NCBI GenBank assembly: GCA_963669155.1
Contig: OZ022591.1
Coordinates: 15,642,336 to 15,706,335, forward strand
DNA from: Arbacia lixula
Lineage: Eukaryota > Echinodermata > Echinoidea > Arbacioida > Arbaciidae
Direction: 5' to 3'
DNA length: 64,000 bases
Positions 8,437 through 32,784 of the stretch are shown here, piece after piece. The notes beneath the pieces are model-generated. The model was not told the DNA's origin. It saw only the letters and a list, made by a program, of their open reading frames with translations, and did no database searches. The position numbers and the translations under genes were made by a program. How positions within the stretch are numbered: the first letter of the stretch is position 1; each line of letters begins with the position of its first letter.

Positions 8437-8607
8437 GTAAGTTTCTTTAAATGCCGAACGAGAAAGGGGGTGAAGTGTCTGTTTGTGATGTCTGAGCGAA
8501 ATGAAATTGAAAATGTGGTAATTTGTGAGGTGTTTGAGGTGCGAGTTTGACCACTTCTTTGTTCTAGCTACCGGGGAACCGGCAGTGTTCGCTGCTACCT
8601 TGAAACT

Positions 8608-8644: not shown

Positions 8645-8764
8645 GGGGGGATTATGGTGTCCGAAGGGTCAAACACAAATGGAAAAAAATATTTTCACGA
8701 TCTCTGTAAGGAGATAAAAGTGATTGTAAGATAATTGTACGGCATGTAAAAAGAATAACAATTA

Positions 8765-11700: not shown

Positions 11701-14700
11701 CTGTTTCACTTTGAAAAGAGGGCTCAAACCGGCATATAACGCGCGGTATTCACCAGATTTGTCGTAAATGGCCACAACTCTTCCAAAAATGTCAGGGCTT
11801 TTAAACCTATCGCATGACACTTTAACTAGCTCATGATTTATATGAGGTGAAAGCTAAATAGTTGCTCTTTACCCCCATATAGGTCCCATGTCGGAACTTT
11901 TTGATTGGTTCTTACTGTTTCACTTTGAAAAGAGGGCTCAAACCGGCATATAACGCGCGGTATTCAAAAGATTTACCGAAAAGTGCAATAACTCTTCCAA
12001 AAAAGTAGGGGCTTCTAAACCTATCGCATGACACTTTAACTAACTAATAAATAGTATGAGGTCAAAGCTAAATAGTTGCTCTTTACCCCCATATAGGTGC
12101 CATGTCGGAACTTTTTGATTCAGTCTTACTGTTGCAGTTTGAAAAGAGGGCTCAAACCGGCATATAACGCGCGGTATTCACAAGATTTACCGAAAATTGC
12201 CATAACTCTTCCAAAAAAGTAGGGGCTTCTAAACCTATCGCATGACACTTTAACTAGCTCATGATTTATATGAGGTGAAAGCTGAATAGTTGCTCTTTAT
12301 CCCCATATAGGTGCCATGTCGGAACTTTTTGATTCAGTCTTACTGTTGCAGTTTGAAGTTTGGGCTCAAACCGGCATTTCGGCCAATTTACGCACGGCAT
12401 TATCAGAATTTACCGAGAACGGCAATACCTCTTCCAAAAATGTAGGGGCTTTTAAACCTATCGCATGACACTTTAACTAACTAATAAATAGTATGAGGTG
12501 AAAGCTAAATAGTTGCTCTTTACCCCCATATAGGTGCCATGTCGGAACTTTTTGATTGGTTCTTACTGTTTCACTTTGAAAAGAGGGCTCAAACCGGCAT
12601 ATAACGCGCGGTATTCACCAGATTTATCGTAAATGGCCACAACTCTTCCAAAAATGTCAGGGCTTTTAAACCTATCGCATGACACTTTAACTAGCTCATG
12701 GTTTATATGAGGTGAAAGCTAAATAGTTGCTCTTTACCCCCATATAGGTCCCATGTCGGAACTTTTTGATTGGTTCTTACTGTTTCACTTTGAAAAGAGG
12801 GCTCAAACCGGCATATAACGCGCGGTATTCAAAAGATTTACCGAAAAGTGCAATAACTCTTCCAAAAAAGTAGGGGCTTCTAAACCTATCGCATGACACT
12901 TTAACTAACTAATAAATAAATAGTATGAGGTCAAAGCTAAATAGTTGCTCTTTACCCCCATATAGGTGCCATGTCGGAACTTTTTGATTCAGTCTTACTG
13001 TTGCAGTTTGAAAAGAGGGCTCAAACCGGCATATAACGCGCGGTATTCACAAGATTTACCGAAAATTGCCATAACTCTTCCAAAAAAGTAGGGGCTTCTA
13101 AACCTATCGCATGACACTTTAACTAGCTCATGGTTTATATGAGGTGAAAGCTGAATAGTTGCTCTTTATCCCCATATAGGTGCCATGTCGGAACTTTTTG
13201 ATTCAGTCTTACTGTTGCAGTTTGAAGTTTGGGCTCAAACCGGCATTTCGGCCAATTTACGCACGGCATTATCAGAATTTACCGAGAACGGCCATACCTC
13301 TTCCAAAAATGTAGGGGCTTTTAAACCTATCGCATGACACTTTAACTAGCTCATGATTTATATGAGGTGAAAGCTAAATAGTTGCTCTTTACCCCCATAT
13401 AGGTGCCATGTCGGAACTTTTTGATTGGTTCTTACTGTTTCACTTTGAAAAGAGGGCTCAAACCGGCATATAACGCGCGGTATTCACCAGATTTGTCGTA
13501 AATGGCCACAACTCTTCCAAAAATGTCAGGGCTTTTAAACCTATCGCATGACACTTTAACTAGCTCATGATTTATATGAGGTGAAAGCTAAATAGTTGCT
13601 CTTTACCCCCATATAGGTCCCATGTCGGAACTTTTTGATTGGTTCTTACTGTTTCACTTTGAAAAGAGGGCTCAAACCGGCATATAACGCGCGGTATTCA
13701 AAAGATTTACCGAAAAGTGCAATAACTCTTCCAAAAAAGTAGGGGCTTCTAAACCTATCGCATGACACTTTAACTAACTAATAAATAGTATGAGGTCAAA
13801 GCTAAATAGTTGCTCTTTACCCCCATATAGGTGCCATGTCGGAACTTTTTGATTCAGTCTTACTGTTGCAGTTTGAAAAGAGGGCTCAAACCGGCATATA
13901 ACGCGCGGTATTCACAAGATTTACCGAAAATTGCCATAACTCTTCCAAAAAAGTAGGGGCTTCTAAACCTATCGCATGACACTTTAACTAGCTCATGATT
14001 TATATGAGGTGAAAGCTGAATAGTTGCTCTTTATCCCCATATAGGTGCCATGTCGGAACTTTTTGATTGGGTCTTACTGTTGCAGTTTGAAGTTTGGGCT
14101 CAAACCGGCATTTCGGCCAATTTACGCACGGCATTATCAGAATTTACCGAGAACGGCCATACCTCTTCCAAAAATGTAGGGGCTTTTAAACCTATCGCAT
14201 GACACTTTAACTAACTAATAAATAGTATGAGGTCAAAGCTAAATAGTTGCTCTTTACCCCCATATAGGTCCCATGTCGGAACTTTTTGATTGGTTCTTAC
14301 TGTTTCACTTTGAAAAGAGGGCTCAAACCGGCATATAACGCGCGGTATTCAAAAGATTTACCGAAAAGTGCAATAACTCTTCCAAAAAAGTAGGGGCTTC
14401 TAAACCTATCGCATGACACTTTAACTAACTAATAAATAGTATGAGGTCAAAGCTAAATAGTTGCTCTTTACCCCCATATAGGTGCCATGTCGGAACTTTT
14501 TGATTCAGTCTTACTGTTGCAGTTTGAAAAGAGGGCTCAAACCGGCATATAACGCGCGGTATTCACAAGATTTACCGAAAATTGCCATAACTCTTCCAAA
14601 AAAGTAGGGGCTTCTAAACCTATCGCATGACACTTTAACTAGCTCATGATTTATATGAGGTGAAAGCTGAATAGTTGCTCTTTATCCCCATATAGGTGCC

Positions 14701-17700
14701 ATGTCGGAACTTTTTGATTCAGTCTTACTGTTGCAGTTTGAAAAGAGGGCTCAAACCGGCATATAACGCGCGGTATTCACAAGATTTACCGAAAATTGCC
14801 ATAACTCTTCCAAAAAAGTAGGAGCTTCTAAACCTATCGCATGACACTTTAACTAGCTCATGATTTATATGAGGTGAAAGCTGAATAGTTGCTCTTTATC
14901 CCCATATAGGTGCCATGTCGGAACTTTTTGATTGGTTCTTACTGTTTCACTTTGAAAAGAGGGCTCAAACCGGCATATAACGCGCGGTATTCAAAAGATT
15001 TACCGAAAAATGCCATAACTCTTCCAAAAAAGTAGGGGCTTCTAAACCTATCGCATGACACTTTAACTAGCTCATGATTTATATGAGGTGAAAGCTGAAT
15101 AGTTGCTCTTCACCCCCATATAGGTCCCATGTCGGAACTTTTTGATTCAGTCTTACTGTTGCAGTTTGAAGTTTGGGCTCAAACCGGCATTTCGGCCAAT
15201 TTACGCACGGCATTATCAGAATTTACCGAGAACGGCCATAACTCTTCCAAAAATATCAGGGCTTTTAAACCTATCGCATGACACTTTAACTAGCTCATGG
15301 TTTATATGAGGTGAAAGCTAAATAGTTGCTCTTTACCCCCATATAGGTCTCATGTCGGAACTTTTTGATTGGTTCTTACTGTTTCACTTTGAAAAGAGGG
15401 CTCAAACCGGCATATAACGCGCGGTATTCAAAAGATTTACCGAAAAATGCCATAACTCTTCCAAAAAAGTAGGGGCTTCTAAACCTATCGCATGACACTT
15501 TAACTAGCTCATGATTTATATGAGGTGAAAGCTGAATAGTTGCTCTTCACCCCCATATAGGTCCCATGTCGGAACTTTTTGATTCAGTCTTACTGTTGCA
15601 GTTTGAAGTTTGGGCTCAAACCGGCATTTCGGCCAATTTACGCACGGCATTATCAGAATTTACCGAGAACGGCCATACCTCTTCCAAAAATGTCAGGGCT
15701 TTTAAACCTATCGCATGACACTTTAACTAGCTCATGGTTTATATGAGGTGAAAGCTAAATAGTTGCTCTTTACCCCCATATAGGTCCCATGTCGGAACTT
15801 TTTGATTGGTTCTTACTGTTTCACTTTGAAAAGAGGGCTCAAACCGGCATATAACGCGCGGTATTCAAAAGATTTACCGAAAAGTGCAATAACTCTTCCA
15901 AAAAAGTAGGGGCTTCTAAACCTATCGCATGACACTTTAACTAACTAATAAATAGTATGAGGTCAAAGCTAAATAGTTGCTCTTTACCCCCATATAGGTG
16001 TCATGTCGGAACTTTTTAATTCAGTCTTACTGTTGCAGTTTGAAAAGAGGGCTCAAACCGGCATATAACGCGCGGTATTCACAAGATTTACCGAAAATTG
16101 CCATAACTCTTCCAAAAAAGTAGGGGCTTCTAAACCTATCGCATGACACTTTAACTAGCTCATGATTTATATGAGGTGAAAGCTGAATAGTTGCTCTTTA
16201 TCCCCATATAGGTGCCATGTCGGAACTTTTTGATTCAGTCTTACTGTTGCAGTTTGAAGTTTGGGCTCAAACCGGCATTTCGGCCAATTTACGCACGGCA
16301 TTATCAGAATTTACCGAGAACGGCCATACCTCTTCCAAAAATGTCAGGGCTTTTAAACCTATCGCATGACACTTTAACTAGCTCATGGTTTATATGAGGT
16401 GAAAGCTAAATAGTTGTTCTTTACCCCCATATAGGTCCCATGTCGGAACTTTTTGATTGGTTCTTACTGTTTCACTTTGAAAAGAGGGCTCAAACCGGCA
16501 TATAACGCGCGGTATTCAAAAGATTTATCGTAAATGGCCACAACTCTTCCAAAAATATCGGGGCTTTAAAAACTATCGCATGACACTTTAACTAGCTCAT
16601 GGTTTATATGAGGTGAAAGCTAAATAGTTGTTCTTTACCCCCATATAGGTCCCATGTCGGAACTTTTTGATTGGTTCTTACTGTTTCACTTTGAAAAGAG
16701 GGCTCAAACCGGCATATAACGCGCGGTATTCAAAAGATTTACCGAAAAGTGCAATAACTCTTCCAAAAAAGTAGGGGCTTCTAAACCTATCGCATGACAC
16801 TTTAACTAACTAATAAATAGTATGAGGTCAAAGCTAAATAGTTGCTCTTTACCCCCATATAGGTGCCATGTCGGAACTTTTTGATTCAGTCTTACTGTTG
16901 CAGTTTGAAAAGAGGGCTCAAACCGGCATATAACGCGCGGTATTCAAAAGATTTACCGAAAAGTGCAATAACTCTTCCAAAAAAGTAGGGGCTTCTAAAC
17001 CTATCGCATGACACTTTAACTAACTAATAAATAGTATGAGGTGAAAGCTAAATAGTTGCTCTTTACCCCCATATAGGTCCCATGTCGGAACTTTTTGATT
17101 GGTTCTTACTGTTTCACTTTGAAAAGAGGGCTCAAACCGGCATATAACGCGCGGTATTCACCAGATTTATCGTAAATGGCCACAACTCTTCCAAAAATAT
17201 CGGGGCTTTAAAAACTATCGCATGACACTTTAACTAGCTCATGGTTTATATGAGGTGAAAGCTAAATAGTTGTTCTTTACCCCCATATAGGTCCCATGTC
17301 GGAACTTTTTGATTGGTTCTTACTGTTTCACTTTGAAAAGAGGGCTCAAACCGGCATATAACGCGCGGTATTCAAAAGATTTACCGAAAAGTGCAATAAC
17401 TCTTCCAAAAAAGTAGGGGCTTCTAAACCTATCGCATGACACTTTAACTAGCTCATGATTTATATGAGGTGAAAGCTGAATAGTTGCTCTTCACCCCCAT
17501 ATAGGTCCCATGTCGGAACTTTTTGATTCAGTCTTACTGTTGCAGTTTGAAGTTTGGGCTCAAACCGGCATTTCGGCCAATTTACGCACGGCATTATCAG
17601 AATTTACCGAGAACGGCCATACCTCTTCCAAAAATGTCAGGGCTTTTAAACCTATCGCATGACACTTTAACTAGCTCATGGTTTATATGAGGTGAAAGCT

Positions 17701-18225
17701 AAATAGTTGCTCTTTACCCCCATATAGGTCTCATGTCGGAACTTTTTGATTGGTTCTTACTGTTTCACTTTGAAAAGAGGGCTCAAACCGGCATATAACG
17801 CGCGGTATTCAAAAGATTTACCGAAAAATGCCATAACTCTTCCAAAAAAGTAGGGGCTTCTAAACCTATCGCATGACACTTTAACTAGCTCATGATTTAT
17901 ATGAGGTGAAAGCTGAATAGTTGCTCTTCACCCCCATATAGGTCCCATGTCGGAACTTTTTGATTCAGTCTTACTGTCGCAGTTTGAAGTTTGGGCTCAA
18001 ACCGGCATATCACGCACGATATTCACCAGATTTACCGAAAATGTCCATAACTCTTCCAAGAATGTCGGGGCTTTTAAATCTATCGCATGACACTTTAACT
18101 AGCTCATGATTTATATGAGGTCAAAGCTGGATAGTTACTCTGTAGCCCCATATATCCAATGTCGGAATTTTTGATTGGGTCTTACTGTTTTAGTTTGAAT
18201 TCATATTACGCGCGGCCCTTCGTAT
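8765..18225 (+). repeat. Left satellite array, about 44 monomers of 214/223 bp
   Basis: Anchoring on CTTTTTGATT gives 42 regularly spaced units from about 9283 to 18165, plus two degenerate ones at the outer edge. Spacing is 214 bp for type B units (GAAAAGAGGGCTCAAACCGG, then CATATAACGCGCGGTATTCA) and 223 bp for type A units (GAAGTTTGGGCTC, then CATTTCGGCCAATTTACGCA). A third type, B', has the type A front and type B back. All carry TATGAGGTGAAAGCT, CCCCATATAGGT and CTATCGCATGACACTTTAAC. Units near both edges are the most diverged and those in the middle nearly identical, the usual result of unequal exchange. The 61-codon open frames at 9697 and 16212 are identical only because they sit in identical monomers. 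Confidence 0.97.
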
Positions 18226-18721
18226 CGCGGCTTCTACACGTAACATGTTACATTAGACAATGACAAAAACAAATAGAGATATTAAAAAACACTTCGTTTT
18301 CTGCATAATGAAAGCAATCGTTAATTACCACTATACCAGATGACGTGAATTATAAGGGAAGCAATAAAGAAAGGAGAGAATATTGAGTTAGTTAGTCATA
18401 GCAGTCAATATGATGGCAACATGAAACGTTGTGAACAATAAATTCAGCCAACATCAATGGCTTTAGCTGTAATACATTTTCTACTCGATTTAAATGCAAA
18501 ATTTATAGAGAGACAGAGAGAAAAACTCTGCAATATTCAATACTGAAACACAGGGATGAGTAACCAGAGTTCGTTTATTTCCACAGACAACATAATTGGA
18601 AATCTAAGGTTTTATATGGTATCAAAAATATTGTACTTCATAGTGTGTGAGCGGGCACGCTGGTCACAAATGTATGTACAATTCTAAATGTCTAATAGAA
18701 TCAATTTGTATACAATTTGCT
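18226..18721. other. 3' untranslated and spacer sequence of the element gene
   Basis: Unique sequence between the left array and the stop codon of the minus-strand gene. It contains a candidate polyadenylation signal at 18574-18579 and no coding frame. Confidence 0.6.
18574..18579 (-). terminator. Candidate polyadenylation signal AATAAA
   Basis: AATAAA on the minus strand (TTTATT on plus), about 145 nt after the TAA stop of the transposase gene. The distance is suitable for a 3' end signal. Confidence 0.5.
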
Positions 18722-21700
18722 TTACAGTGGAAGTAATTTCAGATCAATAACTTCCCTCAACATCACGCTTCTAAGTTGTTGCAAAGTGTCAGTGGATGAG
18801 GAAAACTGCAACACCTTGCCTTCCATTACAGACCGGGCATACATGCAGATGAAAGCTCCACAATTATATCCATCTTGTTGTTTTGGTAGCCCAGAAGGAA
18901 GTACAATTTTCCATTGCTTGATGTTAAGTTTTATATCAAAACTATCAACATTGACATCAGATGTGTTAAGAGCACGCATATATTCACATAAGTGAATAGC
19001 CCTTTGTGCGACCTTTATTGTGTCAGTTGATGCATTTCCTAGTGGATCCATGATATTAACAACCTGAGATGTTGGTTGCATTACAAACAAAACCCAGTGG
19101 TTACTATAAGACAGGGGGACAAAGACCAAGTCGTGGACAGCCCAATTGCGGTTTCGATTGAGTAGTTTTGCCTGATTGGCATACCAATTTTGTGAATGAT
19201 TTTGAGTGAGCCTGCTACCTGCCCAGCAAGCGTCCATCAATACTATTTTGTGTGTTGTTTGTGAGTTGTTCTTAGCTAGACACAAATAGGCATTGATGAT
19301 CGCATCATTAAACCAGTTATCATTTGTTAGAATTGCGAGATCTCGCTTTTCTAAACAATACCTTCCAACTGAGTGCCTATCCGGTAGCAGATTTGATGGT
19401 ATGGGGGTAACTGAATTCAGAAGGCTGTCATTAAACCCAACCGGAAGACCTGCTAATATGCCAATTGAACCACATCTTTCAATTATTTGCTTGTCAATAT
19501 TATCAACACTATTGTCTATTGATCTCTTGCAAAGGTATATACAAAAGGAATCACTTCCATTAGCAAGTGCACTCATTTGCGAGAGAGTCAACTCTTGTCT
19601 TGTTCTTTTACCCCCTTTCATCAACGTAAACTGATCACCCTCGCGTCGGTAAGTCACTGCAGTTTCCCCATCTACCATTATCACATGGTGCAGGACGTAG
19701 TATTGGTTGTTCACAAAACCCTTCGAACATCCTGGGAATGAGTCTACTATAGCAACATTGTCACCTCTTCTGATCATGTGTATGGATACCTTAGCGTGGG
19801 AAACAACTTTGCACTTTCTGACAAATTCCTTGTCAGAGCACTGACAAACCAGGGATGTAACACTATTTGGGTGGAGATGATTCGCAGCTGCTTCTTCTAT
19901 GTTATTTGCATAGTCGAAAAGAGGAATGAGATTAACATAATCAGACGCTACGTGGTTGCATTTGATACATTTATCAACACATAGAATATGAATCAAGTTG
20001 TCAACATCGTTTTTCTGCTGCATTTCCTCAAGTTTAGTTTTGAATTTATTCTTTAAAGCCACAAATGTGCTTTCATTACTTGCATTACTAGTAACACAAG
20101 CAATGCCTGAAGGAGAGGACAAGTCATCATTCGCATTAATCGGATCTGAAATAGTAGGCGATGATGTCATATCCAATGTTTTATCGTAGATAGCTATGTA
20201 TGCAGACGTGTCCGATTCTAAACATTCTTTTTCGCACGCTTCATATTCCATAACTTTGTCGTCATCAATGATGACATTCTTAGTATTGCACTTTATCAGT
20301 GCAGTGTAATGCCCTAAATCGGCAAAGTTTCCATGGTGTCTTATTACTGCAACTAATTGATACTTTGATACGGTTTGGCCAACTGTCACTGAGACGGAAT
20401 CTTGAACTCGGACCCTTGTGTTGCTTTTTACCATGTGTCCACTTTGAGTTTGGTATCCCGTTGCCCTTTGCAAATGTATCAATAACAGATCTGGAACTTT
20501 AACCATCTCCCTTCGTAGTTGGGCTTTCTTATTTCCGCATTTATCGCAGTTAGCAGAAACCGTGTCAGTTTGGTGTACTTGATTACTGATCATATCTTGA
20601 ATAAATACAACATCTGTCACTTCTGGCATCGCGATAGTCCAAATCTTCTGCGTCTCAATAGAAATACTTGTGTTACCACATGTCTTGCAAGTTCGTTGAA
20701 GCTTCATTGTCCCATCGCACAGTGTTTTCAAACCACAAGCTTGAAGAAAGGGAATGATCAAATTGACTATAAATTCATGGGCATCTTGTTGTCTCCCTAT
20801 CCGAAATTTACATGCGTTACTTACTGCAATCAAAACATTTTTTACACCATTTTTAGGAATAGTTGAATTTTTGGTTAGTGACAAGTGTCTCAAAATATTA
20901 AAAAGCTCATCAAATGCCACCTTCATGTCATGATCAGCTGTATAACCTGTGAATTCTTCATAATTTTCCAAATATTGTTGAACTTGGGGTATGCGAATAA
21001 TCGATTGAACAACAGAGTTAAACCAACAATTATTCAAACCATTTTCAATTCCTCCAAAGTGCCTGAATGTTGCTTCTTTTTTGTTAGCATGCCTTAAGGG
21101 ATTTTTCTTTGGTGCCCTCTGAAATACACCCGCCTTCTTTTTCCCACTTTGCTTGTTCCATTCCTCCCTTATTGTAACGGTGGAGCTTGACTTTACAGAG
21201 ACACCTGACATGCTTGGAGGGGTACTACGGGACTGAAACGCCAGCTCACCGGAATAATTAGGACTAAGGCTAGTATTGACAGTATTTGTTTTTTTCTGTC
21301 TCTTGAGTTTACCGTTTGCCTTTGTACTTCTTCCCGAAAGCCTTGTTGAGTGATCATCGTAACTTCTTTGAATTCCTTTAAAATCCTTTGCAAGAATACT
21401 TATGAACTCATCTACACGATTAATCTTCTTAGTTCCTAGCTGAATGTTTTTAACTACCCCCATTCTTTGCTCGGCGTGGCCAGTTGTCTTTGGCAAGTTT
21501 GATATTTCGGTTTTGAAATCTTTGTAAGACTTTTCGTTTTGTTTAGGACTATACCGTGTCAAGTCGCCCAGCAAGATACTAGACCATAAAATACAAGTTG
21601 GGAGGAGTTTCTTTACAAACCCCATGAACAATACTTCATTGTAATCTGGGTTGGGCGTACATTCCTGTGCACTATGCATTTCTTGATCTAAAATCATATC

Positions 21701-24568
21701 TTTCACTCTATTTGTGTGGTCATTGAAATATACTTTAAAGGGAGAAGGGATTTCAGTGAGGTACTCGGCCTCTGTAGATACAAATGAGATGGAGTTGTCA
21801 TCACCAATGGCCTCCTGTGAAAAATCATCAACAGCTACTTCACTAACCGTCTCCCTAAAATCAAAACCCTCATCACCAAGACCGGCAATCGCGTCATGCA
21901 GCTGTTTGGCATTATCAATGAAAAGGCTATGTTTATATTTCGACAGTAACACCACGGCCAAACTATGGAAAATATGGACAAACTCCTCCCAGTAAATCGC
22001 GTTCAAGAGCAAGCTAATCCCGTACATAGGCAAACGCACTCTGTTGCTATTTGCTTTACACATATTTACGACATTTTTCATGAAATGACTTGTGCACGCA
22101 TGTGGTATGGTTAGTTTATTAAAATCACTCAATTCCCCTTTCATATTAACTATTCTCCAGGCACGGTTCAAAAACCCAGACAGATTGTCACAGTTAAATA
22201 TTTTGATTGTTCCCATTAAAAACACCCAAGCTCTGTCACTGCAAATCAACTTTGGCACACATAAATTTGAATGTCCAAATATTTTTTTCTCGGCAGCTCG
22301 AAATACATTAATCCAGTCGATTATAACCTGTTCGGTATGTTCCTCACTTATCATCCATGCCAGAGGAAGAGTGTGTCCATGCCCACCTTTAGGGCCAATG
22401 CATAATTCATAATATAACAAACGCTTTTTATTTAAAGACGAGCGTACGCAGCTACCAGTTGCATCCCAGAATAGTACTTCGGTCTGTGCTCTTTTGTGAA
22501 ATGTACGGACACCATGTTCCGTAAAACAAACTGCATAAAATGGTTTCGCTGATATTTTTTGGATGACGCCTGGTATACAACCTGGATTTTCTGATGCAAG
22601 GCGAGCTTTCAACTTCATGAGACTTTCGAGTTCTTCTCTGTCTGCTCTTAAATGAGTCCTACTTTCACTTGATATTTTTTGAAGAACATGCAGATTGCAG
22701 CCTGTTAAATCCCGATTACCAGAAAGGCACACGGTGTCCTCCATTGAACTTAATTTATCAATATAGACTTTCATTGGCATACAACCTAAACTGAATTGTT
22801 TTCGCAGCTCCCTTCTGTCATTTCCTGTCACATTTCGACAGTTCATTTCGGTTAGTTTGTGATTGACGCTGCCAGTGTATACACATGTAGCTTTGAATAA
22901 ATGCGAAACAGAAACGCTTACTGTTACATCGCAATCTTCAAATTTACACACGGCATTAGTTCGGAATATTGTTTTTCGACGTCGATTGCATGCGACCGAC
23001 ACGTTGTGGTGTTTAAAGACAAAGACACAATATGGATTACTGTTTTTTAATCCTTTCATGATAATATGTTGCCATTCATTGCGTGCAAACTGACGACCTG
23101 TTTGAGTTGCGCATAAATTACGCCATTCTTCTTCTGGGAAAATAAAAGATGTGGTATCAGGTAACTGATATTTAAATGATGCATCTTCAAAAGAGTTATC
23201 AGTTACAGGTTCCTCGTTTATAGTCACGTCATTAGCATGAGTGGTAAGTGGGTGAGCACTCTTTGAATCGCTTTCACAGGAATAATCGTCTAGATTACGA
23301 GTAAGTCCGCTTGCATTGTTCAATGCATCGCTTCCTTCTACAGTAGTGTTTACGCTCTGTATTCTTTTACGATCAGATTCAAAATTACATTCATTTTCTA
23401 ACTGGTCATTGGATCCATTACAAGGCAAAGAGTGTGAATGAACGCTATCATGCGGCGCACGCGAGTCTGTATGATCAACCTCTTTTTGTATCACATTGTG
23501 ACAAGTTCGCGAACTATGATTCTGAATCTGAATGTCTGACATATTTTCCTGAATATCTTTTTCGCGTTCATCATCAAAATCATTATCAATGATCGATTCT
23601 GTTTCCAAGACGATGCCCGATTTTGCAGCATTAGGATACAATCTAATATCTTCAGAGCATGGCGTGCAGTCTGAAAGTGTGGTTAGAGTTTGATTTTCAT
23701 TTGGCATTGCACTTTTAGACTCTTCTTCATCTATTATATTTCCTACTTTTTCAAGAACAGATGAATTTGTGTTTTCGACCCCGTCACTTTCTATTTTGAT
23801 TTTAACATGTTCATTCAAACCTTCGAATGCAATACATTTTGAACCTGTAGTTAGTCTTACTTCCCCGTTATTGCACGCATTTCGCCCACAGTAAAATGTA
23901 ACACCTCGTCCGTTCTTGATATGAGGAGGAATATTCATGCAAGTGTAATGATACCACTCACTGCAACCATCACATTCCATGTACTGACACTTATCGTCGT
24001 AAGGGGTTTGGCAAATGCAGTAAAGAGTAATACCCCTTTTCGCAGTGTCTTCGACTAACCAGTTATCTGACATGCACTTTCGTTTTCTCGTGCGTTTTCC
24101 ATCGGTAGAGGGCGAAAGGCTTACTAATGCTGGGGAATTACTCGATTCGGGATCCTTTGACCTCACTTCACTGGCAGTAGGATATTGTAATTGAATTAAC
24201 TCCTGTACTAGCTCTCTAATGTTACCCCTATTTTCATTCCAGTACAGCCTAAGCAATATCACTGATTTTTTATGACGCGATGTTGGCCATTCCAGCTTCG
24301 TTGCTACTTTTTTATAGAAAATAGAATCAAATGCAGGAATTTCAGCTCCGTTGATTGTATGAACTATGGCACTTGCAACTTCATTGAGATTAATGGAAGA
24401 ATACTTACGTCTACCATGCCGACCAAAACGCTTGCTAGAAGCTGGAGAACCCCCCAACATCTTTGGAGCGTGCATACCAACCAAACTGTTTTGAACTTTG
24501 CAGCGTCGACGACATCGTGATCTTGTTCGGTGTGCAGGAGTAGAAATCAATTCCTCTTGTTCGATTTC
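18722..24568 (-). CDS. Exon 5: PHD finger, DDE transposase, USP, USP-like and Ulp1 protease
   Basis: 1948 codons in one exon; residues here are counted from the acceptor at 24568. After a basic Arg-rich start comes a C4HC3 PHD finger at 184-232 (C184, C186, C199, C202, H207, C210, C227, C232). An acidic Ser/Asn-rich linker follows, then a Cys/His module (C527, C541, C546, H570) of WRKY/GCM/FLYWCH type by appearance. The DDE core is at about 690-870: D702 in LFWDATG, D778 in LICSDRAW, a CxxH motif (C825, H828) and E861/E862. The USP has C1181 in GLNNCWFNSV, QQDAHEF at 1260-1266, two CxxC knuckles (1294/1297, 1341/1344), H1420 in GHYTAL and DDD at 1435-1437. A USP-like half lies at about 1525-1682. 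Ulp1 has W1752, H1824-W, D1841, Q1898 and C1903 in DGYNCGAF. All catalytic residues of USP and Ulp1 are present. The CxxH between the second D and the E is known for the MULE/hAT/P/Kolobok-type DDE fold. The superfamily is not settled: MULE-like or Zisupton/KDZ-like are both possible. Confidence 0.93.
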   Translation of the reverse strand, partial: EIEQEELISTPAHRTRSRCRRRCKVQNSLVGMHAPKMLGGSPASSKRFGRHGRRKYSSINLNEVASAIVHTINGAEIPAFDSIFYKKVATKLEWPTSRHKKSVILLRLYWNENRGNIRELVQELIQLQYPTASEVRSKDPESSNSPALVSLSPSTDGKRTRKRKCMSDNWLVEDTAKRGITLYCICQTPYDDKCQYMECDGCSEWYHYTCMNIPPHIKNGRGVTFYCGRNACNNGEVRLTTGSKCIAFEGLNEHVKIKIESDGVENTNSSVLEKVGNIIDEEESKSAMPNENQTLTTLSDCTPCSEDIRLYPNAAKSGIVLETESIIDNDFDDEREKDIQENMSDIQIQNHSSRTCHNVIQKEVDHTDSRAPHDSVHSHSLPCNGSNDQLENECNFESDRKRIQSVNTTVEGSDALNNASGLTRNLDDYSCESDSKSAHPLTTHANDVTINEEPVTDNSFEDASFKYQLPDTTSFIFPEEEWRNLCATQTGRQFARNEWQHIIMKGLKNSNPYCVFVFKHHNVSVACNRRRKTIFRTNAVCKFEDCDVTVSVSVSHLFKATCVYTGSVNHKLTEMNCRNVTGNDRRELRKQFSLGCMPMKVYIDKLSSMEDTVCLSGNRDLTGCNLHVLQKISSESRTHLRADREELESLMKLKARLASENPGCIPGVIQKISAKPFYAVCFTEHGVRTFHKRAQTEVLFWDATGSCVRSSLNKKRLLYYELCIGPKGGHGHTLPLAWMISEEHTEQVIIDWINVFRAAEKKIFGHSNLCVPKLICSDRAWVFLMGTIKIFNCDNLSGFLNRAWRIVNMKGELSDFNKLTIPHACTSHFMKNVVNMCKANSNRVRLPMYGISLLLNAIYWEEFVHIFHSLAVVLLSKYKHSLFIDNAKQLHDAIAGLGDEGFDFRETVSEVAVDDFSQEAIGDDNSISFVSTEAEYLTEIPSPFKVYFNDHTNRVKDMILDQEMHSAQECTPNPDYNEVLFMGFVKKLLPTCILWSSILLGDLTRYSPKQNEKSYKDFKTEISNLPKTTGHAEQRMGVVKNIQLGTKKINRVDEFISILAKDFKGIQRSYDDHSTRLSGRSTKANGKLKRQKKTNTVNTSLSPNYSGELAFQSRSTPPSMSGVSVKSSSTVTIREEWNKQSGKKKAGVFQRAPKKNPLRHANKKEATFRHFGGIENGLNNCWFNSVVQSIIRIPQVQQYLENYEEFTGYTADHDMKVAFDELFNILRHLSLTKNSTIPKNGVKNVLIAVSNACKFRIGRQQDAHEFIVNLIIPFLQACGLKTLCDGTMKLQRTCKTCGNTSISIETQKIWTIAMPEVTDVVFIQDMISNQVHQTDTVSANCDKCGNKKAQLRREMVKVPDLLLIHLQRATGYQTQSGHMVKSNTRVRVQDSVSVTVGQTVSKYQLVAVIRHHGNFADLGHYTALIKCNTKNVIIDDDKVMEYEACEKECLESDTSAYIAIYDKTLDMTSSPTISDPINANDDLSSPSGIACVTSNASNESTFVALKNKFKTKLEEMQQKNDVDNLIHILCVDKCIKCNHVASDYVNLIPLFDYANNIEEAAANHLHPNSVTSLVCQCSDKEFVRKCKVVSHAKVSIHMIRRGDNVAIVDSFPGCSKGFVNNQYYVLHHVIMVDGETAVTYRREGDQFTLMKGGKRTRQELTLSQMSALANGSDSFCIYLCKRSIDNSVDNIDKQIIERCGSIGILAGLPVGFNDSLLNSVTPIPSNLLPDRHSVGRYCLEKRDLAILTNDNWFNDAIINAYLCLAKNNSQTTHKIVLMDACWAGSRLTQNHSQNWYANQAKLLNRNRNWAVHDLVFVPLSYSNHWVLFVMQPTSQVVNIMDPLGNASTDTIKVAQRAIHLCEYMRALNTSDVNVDSFDIKLNIKQWKIVLPSGLPKQQDGYNCGAFICMYARSVMEGKVLQFSSSTDTLQQLRSVMLREVIDLKLLPL

Positions 24569-27500
24569 CTAATTATGGAAATATTTAGACACATATTGAT
24601 TTGTTAAGTAATATCCATTCAGTGCATTCAAAATATTTACATAGTAGACATTAAGGTTTGGTCTGGCGAAGCGGACACTATATCTAATATAAAAATCTAC
24701 GATATACTACGTCGAAAGTTTTTTTTCCAATTTCTGTAATCAAAACATGTTCACCCTCTTTAAATAAAAAAATCATAACATTATGCATATACTCATCAAT
24801 CCGTCTCAACGGTGTTACGGTCCCCAAATCATAACAGTATTCTCGTAAGATACTCACGAGGTGGTATGTTGATCACATTGCTTCATTTTTTGTCGAGGCA
24901 TTAGCTCAAATAATAACTTTCTATACTCGAGAATGTGGAGCCATAGTAAAAGACATCGAATTTATGTCTACTTTAATATTACCCAAAGGTTATCAGCCAG
25001 TGTTACATACCTCTAGGATTTGGTCAATGTCAGCGTGATCGGTGGATGTATTGGTATCGCGGCGCCTCAACACCTTCTTGGCCCGTTTACGAGAAGTAGA
25101 AGATGACACCCTCCTGGTCTTTGGGTTGAGTATGATGTCGCTTGAGTACCACCCCGCATGTCGACTGTCAATAAGTGTGATGACCTCACATCCCGCATGC
25201 CCACAGGCGGATGGACTAAGGAGAAAGTCTGGTGCGCTATATGCATACACACAGAAACATGGTAGTATTAAGGTTAATCAAATAACAAAATCCGTATTAA
25301 CAAACAAATGTGTCGGGAGGCGAAAAAGCATCCCCCATGCAAAATCTAGCGACATCGGACACGGGCCAGGAAGAAACAAAGACAGACAGTCACAGAAAGA
25401 GTGAGAGGGAGATAGAGGGTGGTGACTAGAGCTACTTGTATGGAACACAAATTCAAAATCTACAATCAAGACTGGAAATTGTATCCTAGAGAACTTTTTC
25501 AGCTCTAAGGTTAAAAAGTGAACAATCAGTGGCCTGAATTGATAAGAGTGTTGATGCTCAAAAGTATTTACAAACTTAATAAACTTAAACCAAATTGTGC
25601 TCATTAACATTGAGTTGAATATGATTCATTGATGCTGCCTAGCACAATACGTTCATATTTTAATCTAAATATTGACTTATATGCACGTCATGATCAAACT
25701 TACGTGATTTCATCCAGTATTAGTAAAACATCCGACGAGTTCAGCCTGTTATGTCTAGGTGTCATCCCTCGAGTCACTGGAGTGAGTGTCCTCTCAAGTC
25801 GAGCGGTCTGTCGAGTTGGAGTGGAGGTCGTTGGTCTGCGTGAAGTCATCTGTCGAGTTGGAGTGGTGGAGGTCATTGGTCTGGGTGGAGTCGTTTGTCG
25901 AGTTGGAGTGGTGGAGGTCGTTGGTCTTGGTGGAGTCGTTTGTCGAGTCGGAGTGGTGGAGGTCGTTGGTCTTGGTGGAGTCGTTTGTCGAGTTGGAGTG
26001 GTGGAGGTCGTTGGTCTGGGTGGAGTCGCTTGTCGAGTTGGAGTGGTGGAGGTCGTTGGTCTCGGTGGAGTTGGAGTGGTGGAGATCGTCGGTTGAGTTG
26101 GAGTGGTGGAGGCCGTTGGTCTGGGTGGAGTTGGAGTGGTGGAGGTCGTTGGTCTAGGTGGAGTTGGAGTGGTGGAGGTCGTTGGTCTAGGTGGAGTTGG
26201 AGTGGTGGAGGTCGTTGGTCTTGGTGAAGTCGGTTGTCGAGTTGGAGTGGTGGAGGTTGTTGGTCTTGGTGGAGTCGTTTGTCGAGTTGGAGTGGTGAAG
26301 GTCGTTGGTCTGGGTGGAGTCGCTTGTCGAGTTGGAGTGGTGGAGATCGTTGGTCGTGGTGGAGTCGGTTGGCGAGTTGGAGTGGTGAAGGTCGTTGGTC
26401 TGGGCGGAGTCGTCTGTAGAGTTGGAGTGGTGGAGGTCGTTGGTCTAGGTGGAGTTGGAGTGGTGGAGGTCGTTGGTCTAGGTGGAGTTGGAGTGGTGGA
26501 GGTCGTTGGTCTTGGTGAAGTCGGTTGTCGAGTTGGAGTGGTGGAGGTTGTTGGTCTTGGTGGAGTCGTTTGTCGAGTTGGAGTGGTGAAGGTCGTTGGT
26601 CTGGGCGGAGTCGTCTGTAGAGTTGGAGTGGTGGAGGCCGTTGGTCTGGGTGGAGTTGGAGTGGTGGAGATCGTTGGTCGTGGTGGAGTCGGTTGTCGAG
26701 TTGGAGTGGTGGAGGTCGTTGGTCGTGGTGGAGTCGTTTGTCGAGTTGGAGTGGTGGAGGTCGTTGGTCGTGGTGGAGTCGGTTGTCGAGTTGGAGTGGT
26801 GGAGATCGTTGGTCGTGGTGGAGTCGGTTGTCGAGTTGGAGTGGTGGAGGTCATTGGTCTGGGTGGAGTCGCTTGTCGAGTTGGAGTGGTGGAGGTCGTT
26901 GGTCTCGGTGGAGTTGGAGTGGTGGAGGTCGTCGGTGGAGTTGGAGTGGTGGAGGTCGTCGGTTGAGTTGGTGTGGTGGAGGCCTTTGGTCTTGGTGGAG
27001 TCGGTTGTCGAGTTGGAGTGGTCGGAGTGGAGCTCGATGAAGATGGAGACAACGGAGGCCAATCCGCAGTCCTCTCGAGAGGTGGGGGAGCTGTCGGTGA
27101 CGTCCTCCTCTCTACCCGCGCTGCTGTAGCAGAAGGCTCATCCTGCCATAGGCTCGTCGTCATCCTCTGGTACATCACTTTGAGCAGGCGAGGAAGGCCT
27201 GAGCACTCGCTTAGATGAAGCCCATCACGAGCCCAGAGCCTTCTGTCCTCTGTGGGGAAGAAGCTCGTGATGTCAATCCAAGAAACACCCTCCTCTCGGC
27301 AGATCATGGAGAAGGCCTGGTTGAAATCCTTGACGAGGTGTTGCTTGTAGTCTAGCCGAGGAGCGATGCTAGTTGCAAGAACCTATGATAAGTCCATATT
27401 AAATAACAATTCCATTTCATTAACAATAATCATTTACCACAATCGTTCAACTTCTAATTTATCAAATAGAATGAGCTGTCATATTCATGATATGTATCTC

Positions 27501-28904
27501 AATTAAAAAAGCTAAATTTAGTTAATGAAACCTCTACCCAATCAAACAAAGGGAAAACATCAATAGAAAACATTATGCAATGATAATTGATAAATGAATA
27601 ACTATATAACCAATGATATCTAATTTGATTTATGAAGATTGTCACTTGAGAAAAAAAAAAGAGATGACTAAAAATCTTTTACGAGGCCCATGAAAAATTT
27701 GCAAATATTCGAGAACAAAATAAAGCAATGCGCTTGTTTCGTAGCGAGCAGATCAAATGGCGTGGTAAAAATCAAAGGTTGCGACAACAAGAATAACAAA
27801 AAATGGGCATACATGTTGTAAGGCTTTATCAATACGGGTATAGACGTACCAATGGTGTCACACGAAGTGCTGATTCCAAAAGACTCCGGAATTGACGACA
27901 GGCAGTCTCCAGAGATGTCGCTGCAAATCCAATGTTGTTAGTCCCTGCGGCGACTACTGCGATGTCGGGCCCACGTTTCCAGCTGAAGTCCAGGAACTCT
28001 TCCTCGACATGGCGACAGGTCCCTCCCGACGTGCTGTTGATGACGAGTTGGATGGGCCCTCGTGGTAGCTTCACATTCCCCTGAACCACTGGTCTTAGTT
28101 GGCTGTCTCCGAAGATGTAGGCAACCTGCAATTAAATGAACAAATGAAAGTTTAGCAATTGATTTAAAATGTTTTCTGTTGCAATAATTGTTTTGTAACG
28201 AAACAGATATTTATATACTGAAAATGGGTCTTCCCTTTACAATCATTGGTGGCCTCCTGAGAACTAGTGTCCTCTGAAGAGGACATACGCCATTGCCCGT
28301 TTATCTTATGACATTTACACTTTTTACACAAACTTCCTTTGAAGCCAGATTTTCTTTTTTATGAGTAATGTTCTATTCATTTGGTACACTAAAATGTGAT
28401 GGAAAATAACATTTGATATACGAGTACAGTCATTCCTATGAAATGCTTTTAATGATCAAAATGCAAGAACACACATGTGCATATAACGGGATAATGTGAT
28501 GTTTAGTGGTTAGTATATTAGATATAACATTCGCAGCGAAAACTGAAAAAGAATACTATTTAAAGCAATTATTGATATTTTAGCCTTCAACATTATCATT
28601 AGAACCACTATTGCTTTAGTATGCTTATAATGTGATACCACATTAACAGTAAAGTTTGAAGAACAAATATCATTACATGGTATGTAGACTATACGCACAT
28701 GCACCCTTCAAATATCAAATGTCATATTACCGAACGATCCCTGTCGATGCCATCGATGATGGTCTTGTTCTGCTTGCCGCTGATACCTAGATCCCAAATC
28801 TCCGCCTTGCTACGTCTTCCGCTGCCACGCCCAGCATCCCAAGCTCCAAACGTCGATGAGCTGCCGCATCTTCCCGTCGACCGCGTCATCCATCCGGAGG
28901 CCAT
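18722..28904 (-). CDS. Five-exon SGNH-PHD-DDE-USP-Ulp1 fusion gene (predicted 2733 aa)
   Basis: Joining 28904-28731, 28125-27850, 27382-25704, 25236-25011 and 24568-18722 gives 8202 nt, exactly 2734 codons with the stop. Intron borders are GTAATA/TGCAG, GTACGT/CATAG, GTAAGT/ATATAG and GTATGT/AATTAG. Phases are 0, 0, 2 and 0, and each join keeps the frame. Two joins are strongly diagnostic. Exons 2 and 3 together complete one SGNH hydrolase (GDS in exon 2, DxxH in exon 3). Exon 5 has no ATG near its start and is preceded at once by an in-frame TAG that is itself the acceptor. The product would combine an esterase-like domain, chromatin reader, DDE recombinase and two ubiquitin-family proteases, presumably nuclear. 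The start (ATG 28904) is the least certain part, since the frame stays open upstream. Alternatively exon 5 could be used alone from the ATG at 24475 (1917 aa). Exon joins are inference from sequence and need RNA support. Confidence 0.7.
24569..25010 (-). other. Intron 4 of the element gene (442 bp)
   Basis: GTATGT donor after GAG at 25011 and an AATTAG acceptor before 24568, phase 0. The interior is AT-rich with no open frame of note. Confidence 0.65.
25011..25236 (-). CDS. Exon 4: basic linker
   Basis: 226 nt, entered in phase 2 and left in phase 0, encoding APDFLLSPSACGHAG and about 60 more residues. The second half is strongly basic (SRKRAKKVLRRRD), a likely bipartite nuclear localisation signal, followed by an acidic DHADIDQILE end. 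The acceptor is CATATAG and the donor GAG|GTATGT. The first half has Cys/His residues (CGHAGC) and could be the edge of a small fold. No domain is recognised. Confidence 0.65.
25237..25703 (-). other. Intron 3 of the element gene (467 bp)
   Basis: Bounded by GTAAGT (just below 25704) and an ATATAG acceptor (just above 25236). No coding frame on the minus strand that competes with splicing. Confidence 0.6.
25704..27382 (-). CDS. Exon 3: SGNH hydrolase C-terminal half and Thr/Pro-rich repeats
   Basis: 1679 nt. The first 70 codons finish the SGNH fold begun in exon 2: VLATSIAPRLDYKQH resembles the block after the GxND motif, and ARDGLHLS carries the DxxH pair (exon residues 53 and 56) that supplies the catalytic Asp and His. 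After a Ser/Thr/Ala linker, about 420 codons are Thr/Pro/Ser/Arg-rich tandem repeats (TSTTPTRQTTPPRPT and a short form TSTTPTPPRPT). The exon ends DVLLILDEIT at a perfect GTAAGT donor. The repeat part resembles mucin-like or disordered spacers and would hold the hydrolase away from the transposase. Repeat-derived open frames in the other five registers are shadows. Confidence 0.8.
25780..27030. repeat. Coding minisatellite with 45-bp and 33-bp units
   Basis: About 30 tandem units alternate irregularly between a 45-bp form (with GTCGTTTGTCGA) and a 33-bp form lacking a 12-bp block. Both lengths are multiples of three, so the minus-strand Thr/Pro frame is never broken. Units differ by scattered substitutions, with blocks of units duplicated (for example near 26230-26420 and 26510-26620). 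Confidence 0.95.
27383..27849 (-). other. Intron 2 of the element gene (467 bp)
   Basis: The donor GTACGT follows CCATTG at 27850; the acceptor TTATCATAG precedes 27382. AT-rich, without open frames. Confidence 0.65.
27850..28125 (-). CDS. Exon 2: SGNH/GDSL hydrolase N-terminal half
   Basis: 276 nt, 92 codons, phase 0 at both ends. It opens with VAYIFGDSQLRPV, the GDS block with the nucleophile Ser (exon residue 8). It continues with a Gly-rich STSGGT block and DIAVVAAGTNNIG, the GxND-like block (exon residues 61-64) that supplies the oxyanion-hole Asn. The acceptor is a strong TTTAATTGCAG. The catalytic Asp/His are in exon 3. SGNH domains are known passengers of some retroelements (CR1-type LINEs and Ngaro elements), where their role is unsettled; activity on lipids or acetyl groups is inference. 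No signal peptide is visible. Confidence 0.85.
28126..28730 (-). other. Intron 1 of the element gene (605 bp)
   Basis: The donor GTAATA lies just below 28731 and the acceptor TTGCAG just above 28125. The donor is the weakest of the set. Confidence 0.5.
28731..28904 (-). CDS. Exon 1: basic N-terminal leader
   Basis: 58 codons from ATG 28904, beginning MASGWMTRSTGRCGSSS and ending KTIIDGIDRDRS, then a GTAATA donor in phase 0. CpG density and composition differ sharply from the AT-rich flanks, as in the other exons. The frame remains open for some 20 codons upstream with possible acceptors (CCAAG, TTGCAG), so this could be an internal exon with the true start further up. No domain is recognised. 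Confidence 0.5.
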
Positions 28905-29689
28905 TCTTGCACTGCAATCTGTATCTTGGACACGAAAATAAAAATAACTCGGAAAGGACAATGTTAGTATCAACGAACTCGATGAAACAAATCAAAACTA
29001 GAAATCAGCTCAAGATTAACTACAAAAAGTAAACAATTAAAAGTATACGTAAGTCGAAGCGTTCTGGATAACACTGTAGTCAACAGCTAAAAGCGATGTG
29101 AATCCTTCAGATGCAAACGATCAAGTGTGACTGCGTGACCGAATGTCTTCTCATTCTTACCAAACGTGTAAGAGTGCTAAAACTAGATTCCATTATTAAC
29201 CAAAGCGATTATCGTTTTTTTAGAAACCGGTACCCATTGATCTATGCCCGCGTTAAACGCCGTTATTGTCATGAATGTTAACACACTTCTCATTGTACTT
29301 CGCCGCGCTCTATATCCTGTTATTCAACAAAGGTATCATGTAGCTGTATAAAGCACGCGCGAAGTATAAAGGCACCGCAAGCTACATTGTGGAGCTAATA
29401 AGATTAACTCCCTTTGTTCAACGTCGATGGCTCTGATTAATGATAGTCGAGTGTCAATCAAAGAAGACCTGTCACTAGATTGTCACTTTGTGAATCCAAG
29501 ACATGGAATAAAGTTTTACAAGATTGATACACGATATGTTCAACAGCTGAATGACATTTGAATTAAAGGCCTAAAGGTTTGATCCCCAGTTCAAATCCCA
29601 AAACACCATCAATAGTTCTAGCCTGTACGGAACAACTCTTCAGCTTTATATTACCTATATCATGTATGTACATTGCCGGGATATCCGTA
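28905..29689. other. 5' flank of the element gene
   Basis: Unique sequence between exon 1 and the right array, presumably containing the promoter. A TATA-like ATATAAAG occurs on the minus strand at 29644-29651. No coding frame or repeat is evident. The stretch around 29580 (GGTTTGATCCCCAGTTC) is not part of a tRNA fold. Confidence 0.4.
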
Positions 29690-32520
29690 ATTTAAGTAAT
29701 ATGCCGGTTTGAGCCAATATTTCAAACTGGAACAGTAAGACCCAATTAAAAAGTTCGGACATGGGATGAGTTATGGCCATTTTCGGTACGCTCTGATCTG
29801 CTGATAATGCAGTGCGTAAATGCCGGTTTGAGCTTTGACCTCATATAAATAACGAGCTGGTTAAAGTGTCATGCGATGGGTTTAAAAGCCCTGACATTTT
29901 TGGAAGAGTTATGGCAATTTTCGGTAAATCTTGTGAATACCGCGCGTTATATGCCGGTTTGAGCCCTCTTTTCAAACTGCAACAGTAAGACTGAATCAAA
30001 AAGTTCCGACATGGCACCTATATGGGGGTAAAGAGCAACTTTTTAGCTTTGACCTCATACTATTTATGAGTTAGTTAAAGTGTCATGCGATGGGTTTAAA
30101 AGCCCCTACATTTTTGGAAGAGTTATGGCAATTTTCGGTAAATCTGGTGAATACCGTGCGTAATATGTCGGTTTGAGCCCTATATTAAAACTGCAACAGT
30201 AAGACTGAATCAAAAAGTTCCGACATGGGACCTATATGGGGATAAAGAGCAACTATTCAGCTTTGACCTCATACTATTTACGAGTTAGTTAAAGTGTCAT
30301 GCGATTGGTTTAAAAGCCCTGACATTTTTGGAAGAGTTATGGCCATTTTCGGATAATCCTACGCATGCGGTGCGTAATATGCCGGTTTGAGCCCAAACTT
30401 CAAACTGCAACAGTAAGACCCAATCAAAAAGTTCCGACATGGCACCTATATGGGGTTAAAGAGCAACTAATCAGCTTTTTCCTCATATAAATAATGAGCT
30501 AGTTAAAGTGTCATGCGATGGGTTTAAAAGCCCTGACATTTTTTGGAAGAGTTATGGCAATTTTCGGTAAATCTTGTGAATACCGCGCGTTATATGCCGG
30601 TTTGAGCCCTCTATTCACAGTGAAACAGTAAGACCCAATCAAAAAGTTCCGACATGGCACCTATATGGGGGTAAAGAGCAACTATTCAGCTTTCACCTCA
30701 TATAAACCATGAGCTAGTTAAAGTGTCATGCGATATGTTTAAAAGCCCTGACATTTTTGGAAGAGGTATGGCCGTTCTCGGTAAATTCTGATAATGCCGT
30801 GCGTAAATTGGCCGAAATGCCGGTTTGAGCCCAAACTTCAAACTGCAACAGTAAGACTGAATCAAAAAGTTCCGACATGGGACCTATATGGGGATAAAGA
30901 GCAATTATTGACCTTTGACCTCATACCATTTATTAGTTAGTTAAAGTGTCATGCGATAGGTTTAGAAGCCCCTACTTTTTTGGAAGAGTTATGGCATTTT
31001 TCGGTAAATATTGTGAATACCGCGCGTTATATGCCGGTTTGAGCCCTCTTTTCAAAGTGAAACAGTAAGAACCAATCAAAAAGTTCCGACATGGGACCTA
31101 TATGGGGGTAAAGAGCAACTATTTAGCTTTCACCTCATATAAATCATGAGCTAGTTAAAGTGTCATGCGATAGTTTTTAAAGCCCCGATATTTTTGGAAG
31201 AGTTGTGGCCATTTTCGATAAATCTGGTGAATACCATGAATACCGCGCGTTATATGCCGGTTTGAGCCCTCTTTTCAAAGTGAAACAGTAAGAACCAATC
31301 AAAAAGTTCCGACATGGGACCTATATGGGGGTAAAGAACAACTATTTAGCTTTCACCTCATACTATTTATTAGTTAGTTAAAGTGTCATGCGATAGGTTT
31401 AAAAGCCCTGACATTTTTGGAAGAGGTATGGCCGTTCTTGGTAAATTCTGATAATGCCGTGCGTAAATTGGCCGAAATGCCGGTTTGAGCCCAAACTTCA
31501 AACTGCAACAGTAAGACTGAATCAAAAAGTTCCGACATGGCACCTATATGGGGATAAAGAGCAACTATTCAGCTTTCACCTCATATAAATCATGAGCTAG
31601 TTAAAGTGTCATGCGATAGGTTTAAAAGCCCTGACATTTTTGGAAGAGGTATGGCCGTTCTCGGTAAATTCTGATAATGCCGTGCGTAAATTGGCCGAAA
31701 TGCCGGTTTGAGCCCAAACTTCAAACTGCAACAGTAAGACCCAATCAAAAAGTTCCGACATGGCACCTATATGGGGATAAAGAGCAACTATTCAGCTTTG
31801 ACCTCATATAAACCATGAGCTAGTTAAAGTGTCATGCGATAGGTTTAGAAGCCCCTACTTTTTTGGAAGAGTTATGGCAATTTTCGGTAAATCTTGTGAA
31901 TACCGCGCGTTATATGCCGGTTTGAGCCCTCTTTTCAAACTGCAACAGTAAGACTGAATCAAAAAGTTCCGACATGGCACCTATATGGGGGTAAAGAGCA
32001 ACTTTTTAGCTTTGACCTCATACTATTTATTAGTTAGTTAAAGTGTCATGCGATAGGTTTAGGAGCCCCTACATTTTTGGAAGAGTTATGGCCATTTTCG
32101 GTAAATCTGGTGAATACCGTGCGTAATATGTCGGTTTGAGCCCTATATTAAAACTGCAACAGTAAGACCCAATCAAAAAGTTCCGACATGGGACCTATAT
32201 GGGGATAAAGAGCAACTATTCAGCTTTGATCTCATACTATTTATCAGTTAGTTAAAGTGTCATGCGATTGGTTTAAAAGCCCTGACATTTTTGGAAGAGT
32301 TATGGCCATTTTCGGATAATCCTACACATGCGGTGCGTAATATGCCGGTTTGAGCCCAAACTTCAAACTGCAACAGTAAGACCCAATCAAAAAGTTCCGA
32401 CATAGCACCTACATGGGGATGAAGAACAACTATTCAGCTTTGACATCATACTATGTATTAGTTAGTTAAAGTGTCATGCGATGGGTTTAAAAGCCCCGAC
32501 ATTTTTGGAATAGTTATGGC
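29690..32520 (-). repeat. Right satellite array, about 13 monomers in inverted orientation
   Basis: The reverse complement of the left-array monomer. Shared words are AATCAAAAAGTTCCGACATGG, CCTATATGGGG, AGCTTTCACCTCATATAAA and AAAGTGTCATGCGAT. Both the CATTTCGGCC (type A) and CATATAACGCGC (type B) variants are present. The innermost unit (about 29700) and the outermost (about 32500) are the most diverged. It is roughly a third the length of the left array. Confidence 0.97.
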
Positions 32521-32784
32521 CGATACGCCGCTTACATCGTTTTCCAAGTTGGGTTTGTTCATCATCTCTACGGAAGAAAAAGATTGTTTTTACGTTTTTT
32601 ATATATCAAGTAAAGACATACATAGATCCTTTAAATGATCCAGCTTCGTTTTTCTTATAAGTGCCACGTAATATATTTTTTATTCCACTTCTTGTCTCTA
32701 TATTTTTACACTAAACGCTTTAAATTCTCATTTGTTTTTTTGAAGACACCGTAGCACCATATTCTATTGTTCTCGCCCGTAGCA
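32521..32784. other. Spacer outside the right array
   Basis: AT-rich unique sequence between the last monomer and the outer inverted block; no gene or repeat seen. Confidence 0.5.

Follow-up and report, generated by a model that had tools for sequence, protein, structure and literature searches.

A 24-kb transposon with satellite-rich ends in a sea urchin genome, predicted to encode a PHD finger, a transposase-like region, and USP and Ulp1 proteases in one protein

We have analysed here a 64,000-nucleotide stretch of the genome of the sea urchin Arbacia lixula (the window), which contains a large mobile element with a gene on its minus strand. The gene is predicted to have five exons (Table 1), with GT..AG borders at all four introns and matching phases, and as judged from the sequence the exons would be spliced into one protein of 2733 aa. 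The sequence-only reading had described a single exon of 1948 codons, and this frame stands as one uninterrupted stop-to-stop frame, the runner-up in the window having 560 aa; but four predicted exons precede it, and the predicted protein is therefore longer than 1948 aa. The N-terminus of the predicted spliced protein is a GDSL/SGNH hydrolase (Lipase_GDSL_2, PF13472; E 1.9e-11, 45.2 bits against a cut-off of 32.9), and the top PDB sequence match of this part is a weak one (E 0.019) to 4c1b, an 'ORF1-encoded protein' which we take to be the esterase of the zebrafish L2 retrotransposon. Genome searches covered the window's own genome (607 Mb in 590 contigs, denoted C1, C18 and so on), in which exon 4 is matched in six loci at 99-100%. 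A Pfam match to Bindin (E 2.2e-65, far above its cut-off) agrees with an echinoderm host, bindin not being known outside the echinoderms. The copy of the gene on C18 has the same splice sites and an open model with a product of 2649 aa, an in-frame 252-nt length difference from the window product lying in the exon 3 repeats. Other families of SGNH exons are present at C8:9057999-9059795 and C8:9083076-9084875, and at C18:15014958-15079249, with 85-90% and 36-52% identity; no transposase match is listed at these sites, which are probably subfamilies or other elements with the same hydrolase.

Table 1. Positions in the window of the element, its termini and the parts of its predicted gene.
Feature	Positions	Strand	Description
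Whole element	8590..32846	minus (gene strand)	24,257 bp; ends from the C82/C18 comparison, end matches and 9-bp duplications
Left target-site duplication GGCAGTGTT	8581..8589		same as 32847-32855
Left terminal unique segment	8590..8925	plus	starts CGCT(GCTA)CCTTGAAACTGGCGACCAATAG
Left 214/223-bp satellite array	9162..18199	plus	about 42 copies, preceded from about 8926 by repeat that is more degenerate
AATAAA polyadenylation-like signal	18574..18579	minus	3' of the stop codon
Exon 5	18722..24568	minus	1948 codons and stop; PHD, transposase-like region, USP, Ulp1
Ulp1 (Peptidase_C48)	18782..19318	minus	aa 1751-1929; Pfam E 1.7e-16
USP (UCH, peptidase C19)	20186..21052	minus	aa 1173-1461; Pfam E 2.7e-29
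Transposase-like region	21314..23146	minus	aa 475-1085; D702, D778, C825xxH828, E1033
PHD finger	23888..24019	minus	aa 184-227; Pfam E 1.3e-5, above cut-off
Exon 4 (predicted)	25011..25236	minus	75 codons, basic linker; GT..AG borders and phase
Exon 3 (predicted)	25704..27382	minus	last part of the GDSL/SGNH hydrolase, followed by Pro/Thr-rich repeats built of 45-, 33- and 27-bp units
Exon 2 (predicted)	27850..28125	minus	GDSL/SGNH hydrolase, GDS and GTNN boxes
Exon 1 (predicted)	28731..28904	minus	start codon at 28904; open in other copies
Right array, same 214/223-bp satellite, inverted	29831..32521	minus	about 12 copies
Right terminal unique segment	32522..32846	minus	reverse complement starts ATTGAGCTACTTTTGGCGACCAATAAG
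Right target-site duplication GGCAGTGTT	32847..32855		same as 8581-8589

The PHD finger, USP and Ulp1 domains that had been read by eye in the 1948-codon frame are borne out by Pfam matches above the cut-offs and by the presence of the catalytic residues, and the UCH match spans nearly the entire Pfam profile. The PHD ligands are C184, C186, C199, C202, H207, C210, C227 and C232; the USP has its Cys/His/Asp triad (C1181, H1420 and D1435/1436), the QQDAHEF box at 1260 and zinc cysteines at 1294, 1297, 1341 and 1344; and the catalytic set of Ulp1 is H1824, D1841, Q1897 and C1903. USP12/USP46, SENP2/SENP1 and the BPTF PHD finger are among the best matches of exon 5 in a PDB sequence search. Of the profiles that the sequence-only reading had named for a search of the exon translation, PHD, UCH and Peptidase_C48 were found, and MULE and KDZ gave no match.

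The region between the PHD finger and the USP is more difficult to classify. The RNase H-like core of MULE transposases has the motif D, D, (C/D)xxH, E, and the D..D..CxxH..E residues on which a DDE transposase had been proposed are indeed present; D702, D778, C825, H828 and E1033 are all retained in a second family of the element (described below), with which this region shares 34-38% identity. The DDE assignment itself found no backing in Pfam, PDB or structure prediction. The region has no Pfam or PDB match at E values up to 10, a range in which the HMMER filters conceal most very weak matches; the MULE domain PF10551 is likewise absent up to E 10 in Pfam, and its seven matches in the same genome are all at other loci. 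AlphaFold2 run without an alignment gave an unusable model of the region (pLDDT 36.7). When its profile was compared by hhalign with those of three MULE proteins encoded elsewhere in this genome, the E values were 0.28, 0.095 and 0.17, with the strand of the first Asp in register in two of the three comparisons, none of them significant, and in a column-shuffle control of the MULE profile comparison 8/200 and 39/200 shuffles scored equally high. No alternative transposase candidate is found in the element outside the arrays among frames of at least 70 aa, and within the arrays there is no frame of at least 200 aa.

The second family is represented on contig C1 by a 2317-aa frame with 29% overall identity to exon 5 of the window, in which PHD, UCH and C48 matches follow in the same order (Pfam, 2176 aa scanned), the PHD finger above its cut-off and UCH and C48 with E values of 3.4e-17 and 1.4e-14. 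Retention of key residues is complete for the PHD ligands (8/8), the transposase-like region (5/5) and Ulp1 (5/5); the USP boxes retain nine of ten residues, with Q1261 replaced by Ala and the triad intact, together with three of the four zinc cysteines. Four loci belong to this family at 94% identity or more (C1, C10 and two on C12). The C10 copy is 94-96% identical to that of C1 and is broken, and part of the history separating the two is therefore probably neutral. In this comparison, with its one broken copy, dN is below dS in all four segments: 0.0197 against 0.0491 in the N-terminal segment, 0.0207 against 0.0350 in the transposase, 0.0112 against 0.0244 from the second half of the USP to the start of Ulp1, and 0.0108 against 0.0444 in Ulp1, with uncorrected Fisher p values of 0.011 for the N-terminal segment, 0.043 for the transposase and 0.005 for the latter two segments joined. 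Beside the second-family gene, at C1:30245857-30249114 (plus strand), is a 1086-aa frame which by eye resembles a BEL/Pao-type gag and is probably a nested retroelement. No relatives were confirmed in viral contigs or in bacterial and archaeal genomes.

Two further segments of exon 5 deserve comment. Residues 58-118 approximately (window 24215-24397) have a conserved counterpart in the second-family gene (tblastn E 1.8e-4) and look Myb/SANT-like by eye, with no Pfam match above cut-off; this segment is a possible candidate for an end-binding domain. In the interval between USP and Ulp1 (aa 1495-1680, window 19529-20086), Cys motifs are partly retained in both families. A degenerate second USP, which had been suspected there by eye, was unsupported by Pfam, by PDB profile search and by comparison with the first USP.

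The same nine bases, GGCAGTGTT, occur on both sides of the element and therefore define its extent (Table 1). The two outer ends share near their tips only a 12-bp sequence, TGGCGACCAATA, and the long inversion resides in the two satellite arrays. The GCTA at the left end is peculiar to the window copy among the loci whose ends were compared. Scans of the window for tRNA genes and Rfam families gave no match. Outside the element the window also contains tandem arrays with 101-bp and 84-bp units (1809-2003 and 45300-45490), a dispersed repeat of about 530 bp at 37275-37802 and 57857-58375, each copy 92-93% identical to C18:7499364-7499893, and a common and partly palindromic repeat at 4743-4888, 57564-57860 and 63502-63857, which is 83-88% identical between sites and looks like a MITE- or hairpin-like family.

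The element is mobile, as seen in its paired ends, its 9-bp duplications and shorter copies bearing pieces of the gene. Searches with the terminal segments gave at least 41 left-end and at least 40 right-end matches, window included, and pairing of these by hand yielded 30 elements (29 besides that of the window) ranging from 3.2 to 24.3 kb, of which the window copy is the longest; the C18 copy was left out, the sequence to its left consisting of N only. Flanks were compared for 22 of the 30 paired loci (20 fetched loci, the window and C82). The 9-bp duplication is perfect in 14 and matches at eight of nine positions in two, where one of the matches consists of low-complexity A/T sequence; it is absent in five, C82 included, and in the remaining locus one end was not found. 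Among 16 SGNH loci picked from 59 matches, 11 (window included) are situated between paired ends, as are six of ten exon 5 pieces picked from 25 matches, and the gene is thereby tied to these ends. Two left ends on C14 (456984-457173, minus strand, and 457211-457400, plus strand) lie head to head with 37 bases between them, indicative of a nested or self-inserted copy. At C1:15364605-15370523 and C18:19830547-19836580 there are exon 4 and exon 5 pieces at about 6 kb or less from a left end, with no right end among those scored; these are further partial copies.

Activity has also been recent, with exon 5 of two copies being only six bases apart. The C18 copy differs from the window at three synonymous and three non-synonymous positions in this exon (3/1948 aa), and the unique parts compared are 99.3-100% identical, which argues for recent movement; the exon 3 repeats are 92% identical over the alignable stretch. 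The C82 copy of exon 5 is 99% identical from aa 314 onward, has one stop and lacks the 5' part, and several further fragments of the exon are present in the genome.

Taken as a whole, the locus is probably best explained as a 24-kb cut-and-paste transposon of the Rehavkus/MULE kind, encoding a single protein with the order SGNH, Pro/Thr-rich region, PHD finger, DD(CxxH)E transposase, USP and Ulp1, in which the proteases act nearby on ubiquitin and SUMO. In the mechanism that we propose, the transposase would bind the satellite-rich ends of the element, the PHD finger would read histone H3 at the donor or target chromatin, and the DDE-like region would cut and paste the element. The tethered USP and Ulp1 may strip ubiquitin and SUMO in cis from proteins within reach, and the likeliest substrates would be silencing factors, repair factors or the transposase itself. 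The outcome would be an element that is less silenced and a transposase that is less readily destroyed. We put forward only tentatively the more ambitious proposal of a self-contained anti-silencing transposase, in which the ubiquitin and SUMO removers, and the SGNH esterase, would act in cis at the satellite-rich ends to undo silencing and to steer repair during movement.

Several other explanations may be considered. It is possible, though we are inclined to doubt it, that the proteases serve only their own protein, with Ulp1 and perhaps the USP processing the polypeptide or shielding the transposase from ubiquitin-dependent destruction, and with no action on chromatin. The predicted protein is large (2733 aa) and includes an extended Pro/Thr-rich region, which suits such a role, and the deubiquitinases of Helitrons have been proposed to guard transposition proteins from degradation (PMC9741609), although the PHD finger favours a chromatin setting. 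It is somewhat unlikely that two genes are present, the SGNH hydrolase and Pro/Thr repeats of exons 1-3 being separate from the PHD-transposase-USP-Ulp1 protein of exon 5, which may or may not include exon 4. No clear equivalent of exon 4 was found in the second family, and in three of the four second-family loci (not C10) SGNH-like exons with 34-42% identity precede the gene by 13-38 kb in the same orientation, a link that is positional only. However, the borders and phases of all four introns of the window gene agree, and the C18 copy can be read through with this same model, with an in-frame length difference in its repeat exon.

That the USP, Ulp1 and SGNH domains are captured passengers with no present function in transposition we consider improbable. 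Some MULEs often carry captured pieces of genes (PMC6431247, PMC13317346), and identity between the two families, which is 32/54 in the PHD finger and 122/330 in the transposase-like region, is lower than the latter in the USP (74/277) and in Ulp1 (54/195). Nevertheless, the domain order and the core catalytic residues have been retained between families that are only 29% identical overall, and dN is below dS in the protease segments compared between the second-family copies. An assembly chimera or a chance juxtaposition of separate genes, the former named beforehand by the sequence-only reading as the case against itself, has practically nothing to commend it, since exon 5 recurs nearly identical on C18 and at 99% on C82 and the diverged family has the same order in one 2317-aa frame; no evidence for a chimera was found, and these independent copies rule it out.

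If the more ambitious proposal is correct, the element would represent a class of animal DNA transposon in which a transposase, a histone-reading finger, and ubiquitin and SUMO removers are combined in one polypeptide. The element also places a satellite DNA within the inverted ends of a transposon that has moved recently. Because the USP and Ulp1 are in one frame with the transposase-like region, their core catalytic residues are retained in two families and the element is young, with exon 5 copies six bases apart, the effect of cis deubiquitination and deSUMOylation on transposition, silencing and repair could be tested directly.

The relationship to known elements can be considered from the duplications and the domains. 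The comparison with KDZ/Zisupton elements drawn in the sequence-only reading did not hold up, and kinship with them is ruled out by the length of the duplications, 9 bp here and 8 bp in KDZ/Zisupton elements, and by the absence of a KDZ match in the Pfam scans. Ginger kinship is similarly ruled out by duplication length, which is 4 bp in Ginger1, and by the lack of any integrase match in the Pfam scans, the Ginger1 transposase being recognised by rve-type models. Ulp1, OTU and C19 domains have been on record in transposons since at least 2006-2010 (PMC2836005). Ginger1 transposons have a C-terminal Ulp1 or OTU domain, and one has Ulp1 together with a PHD finger, so that they resemble the present element in having a transposase fused to a ubiquitin/SUMO-type protease; they differ in their Gypsy-integrase-type transposase and their size of about 2.6-7 kb, and no USP and Ulp1 pair is listed for them in the parts of that account available to us (PMC2836005). 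A Trichomonas vaginalis protein joins a USP-type protease (peptidase C19) to a transposase as here, but of the Transposase_11 type, and the same parts of that account mention no Ulp1, PHD or SGNH domain for it (PMC2836005).

Ulp1 in a Mutator context is described in hydra, lancelet and several plants, including the Vandal/KIU elements of Arabidopsis (PMC2836005, PMC13317346). The plant Vandal MULEs carry an anti-silencing protein with Ulp1, although in Arabidopsis Vandal the domain belongs to VANC, one of three genes, the available portion of the source makes no mention of a USP, and the role of Ulp1 in plant elements is still stated there as unknown (PMC13317346). Helitrons and Helentrons also encode proteins that contain a deubiquitinase domain or several, but these are OTU and VTD rather than USP and Ulp1, and they accompany a rolling-circle RepHel and not a DDE transposase (PMC9741609). 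The joining of Ulp1, OTU or USP singly to transposons is thus known. The combination of USP and Ulp1 in one transposase polypeptide had struck the sequence-only reading as unfamiliar, and no such protein was found in a literature search of partly accessible sources, with Repbase and most subscription journals outside its scope.

In the architecture of its ends the element resembles Tm1, a Mutator/Foldback element with composite inverted termini and 9-bp duplications, which differs in its 496-aa putative transposase and whose abstract names no proteases (PMC3169594). The closest fit in anatomy is with Rehavkus, a group of DNA transposons of arthropods and annelids placed as an outgroup or sister of MULE, with 9-bp duplications, a PHD finger in the transposase protein and satellite or minisatellite termini (PMC6446971, PMC10218199); Rehavkus-1_TC, for example, has a 164-bp satellite in short arrays within its inverted termini (PMC6446971). 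The present element shares the 9-bp duplications, the PHD finger (in both families) and the satellite in inverted termini, and we liken it to Rehavkus in anatomy, as a possible rather than a proven member. It is larger (24.3 kb compared with 9.5 kb), and its arrays hold about 42 copies on the left and 12 on the right, where Rehavkus has mostly five and eight. Rehavkus has terminal inverted repeats of 26-400 bp, to which the 12-bp sequence near the outer ends of the present element, or the long inversion in its arrays, may or may not correspond. The USP, Ulp1 and SGNH domains, all three present here, go unmentioned in the published Rehavkus descriptions as far as these were accessible. The host is an echinoderm, as opposed to the arthropods and annelids of Rehavkus, and the element extends a Rehavkus-like anatomy to such a host.
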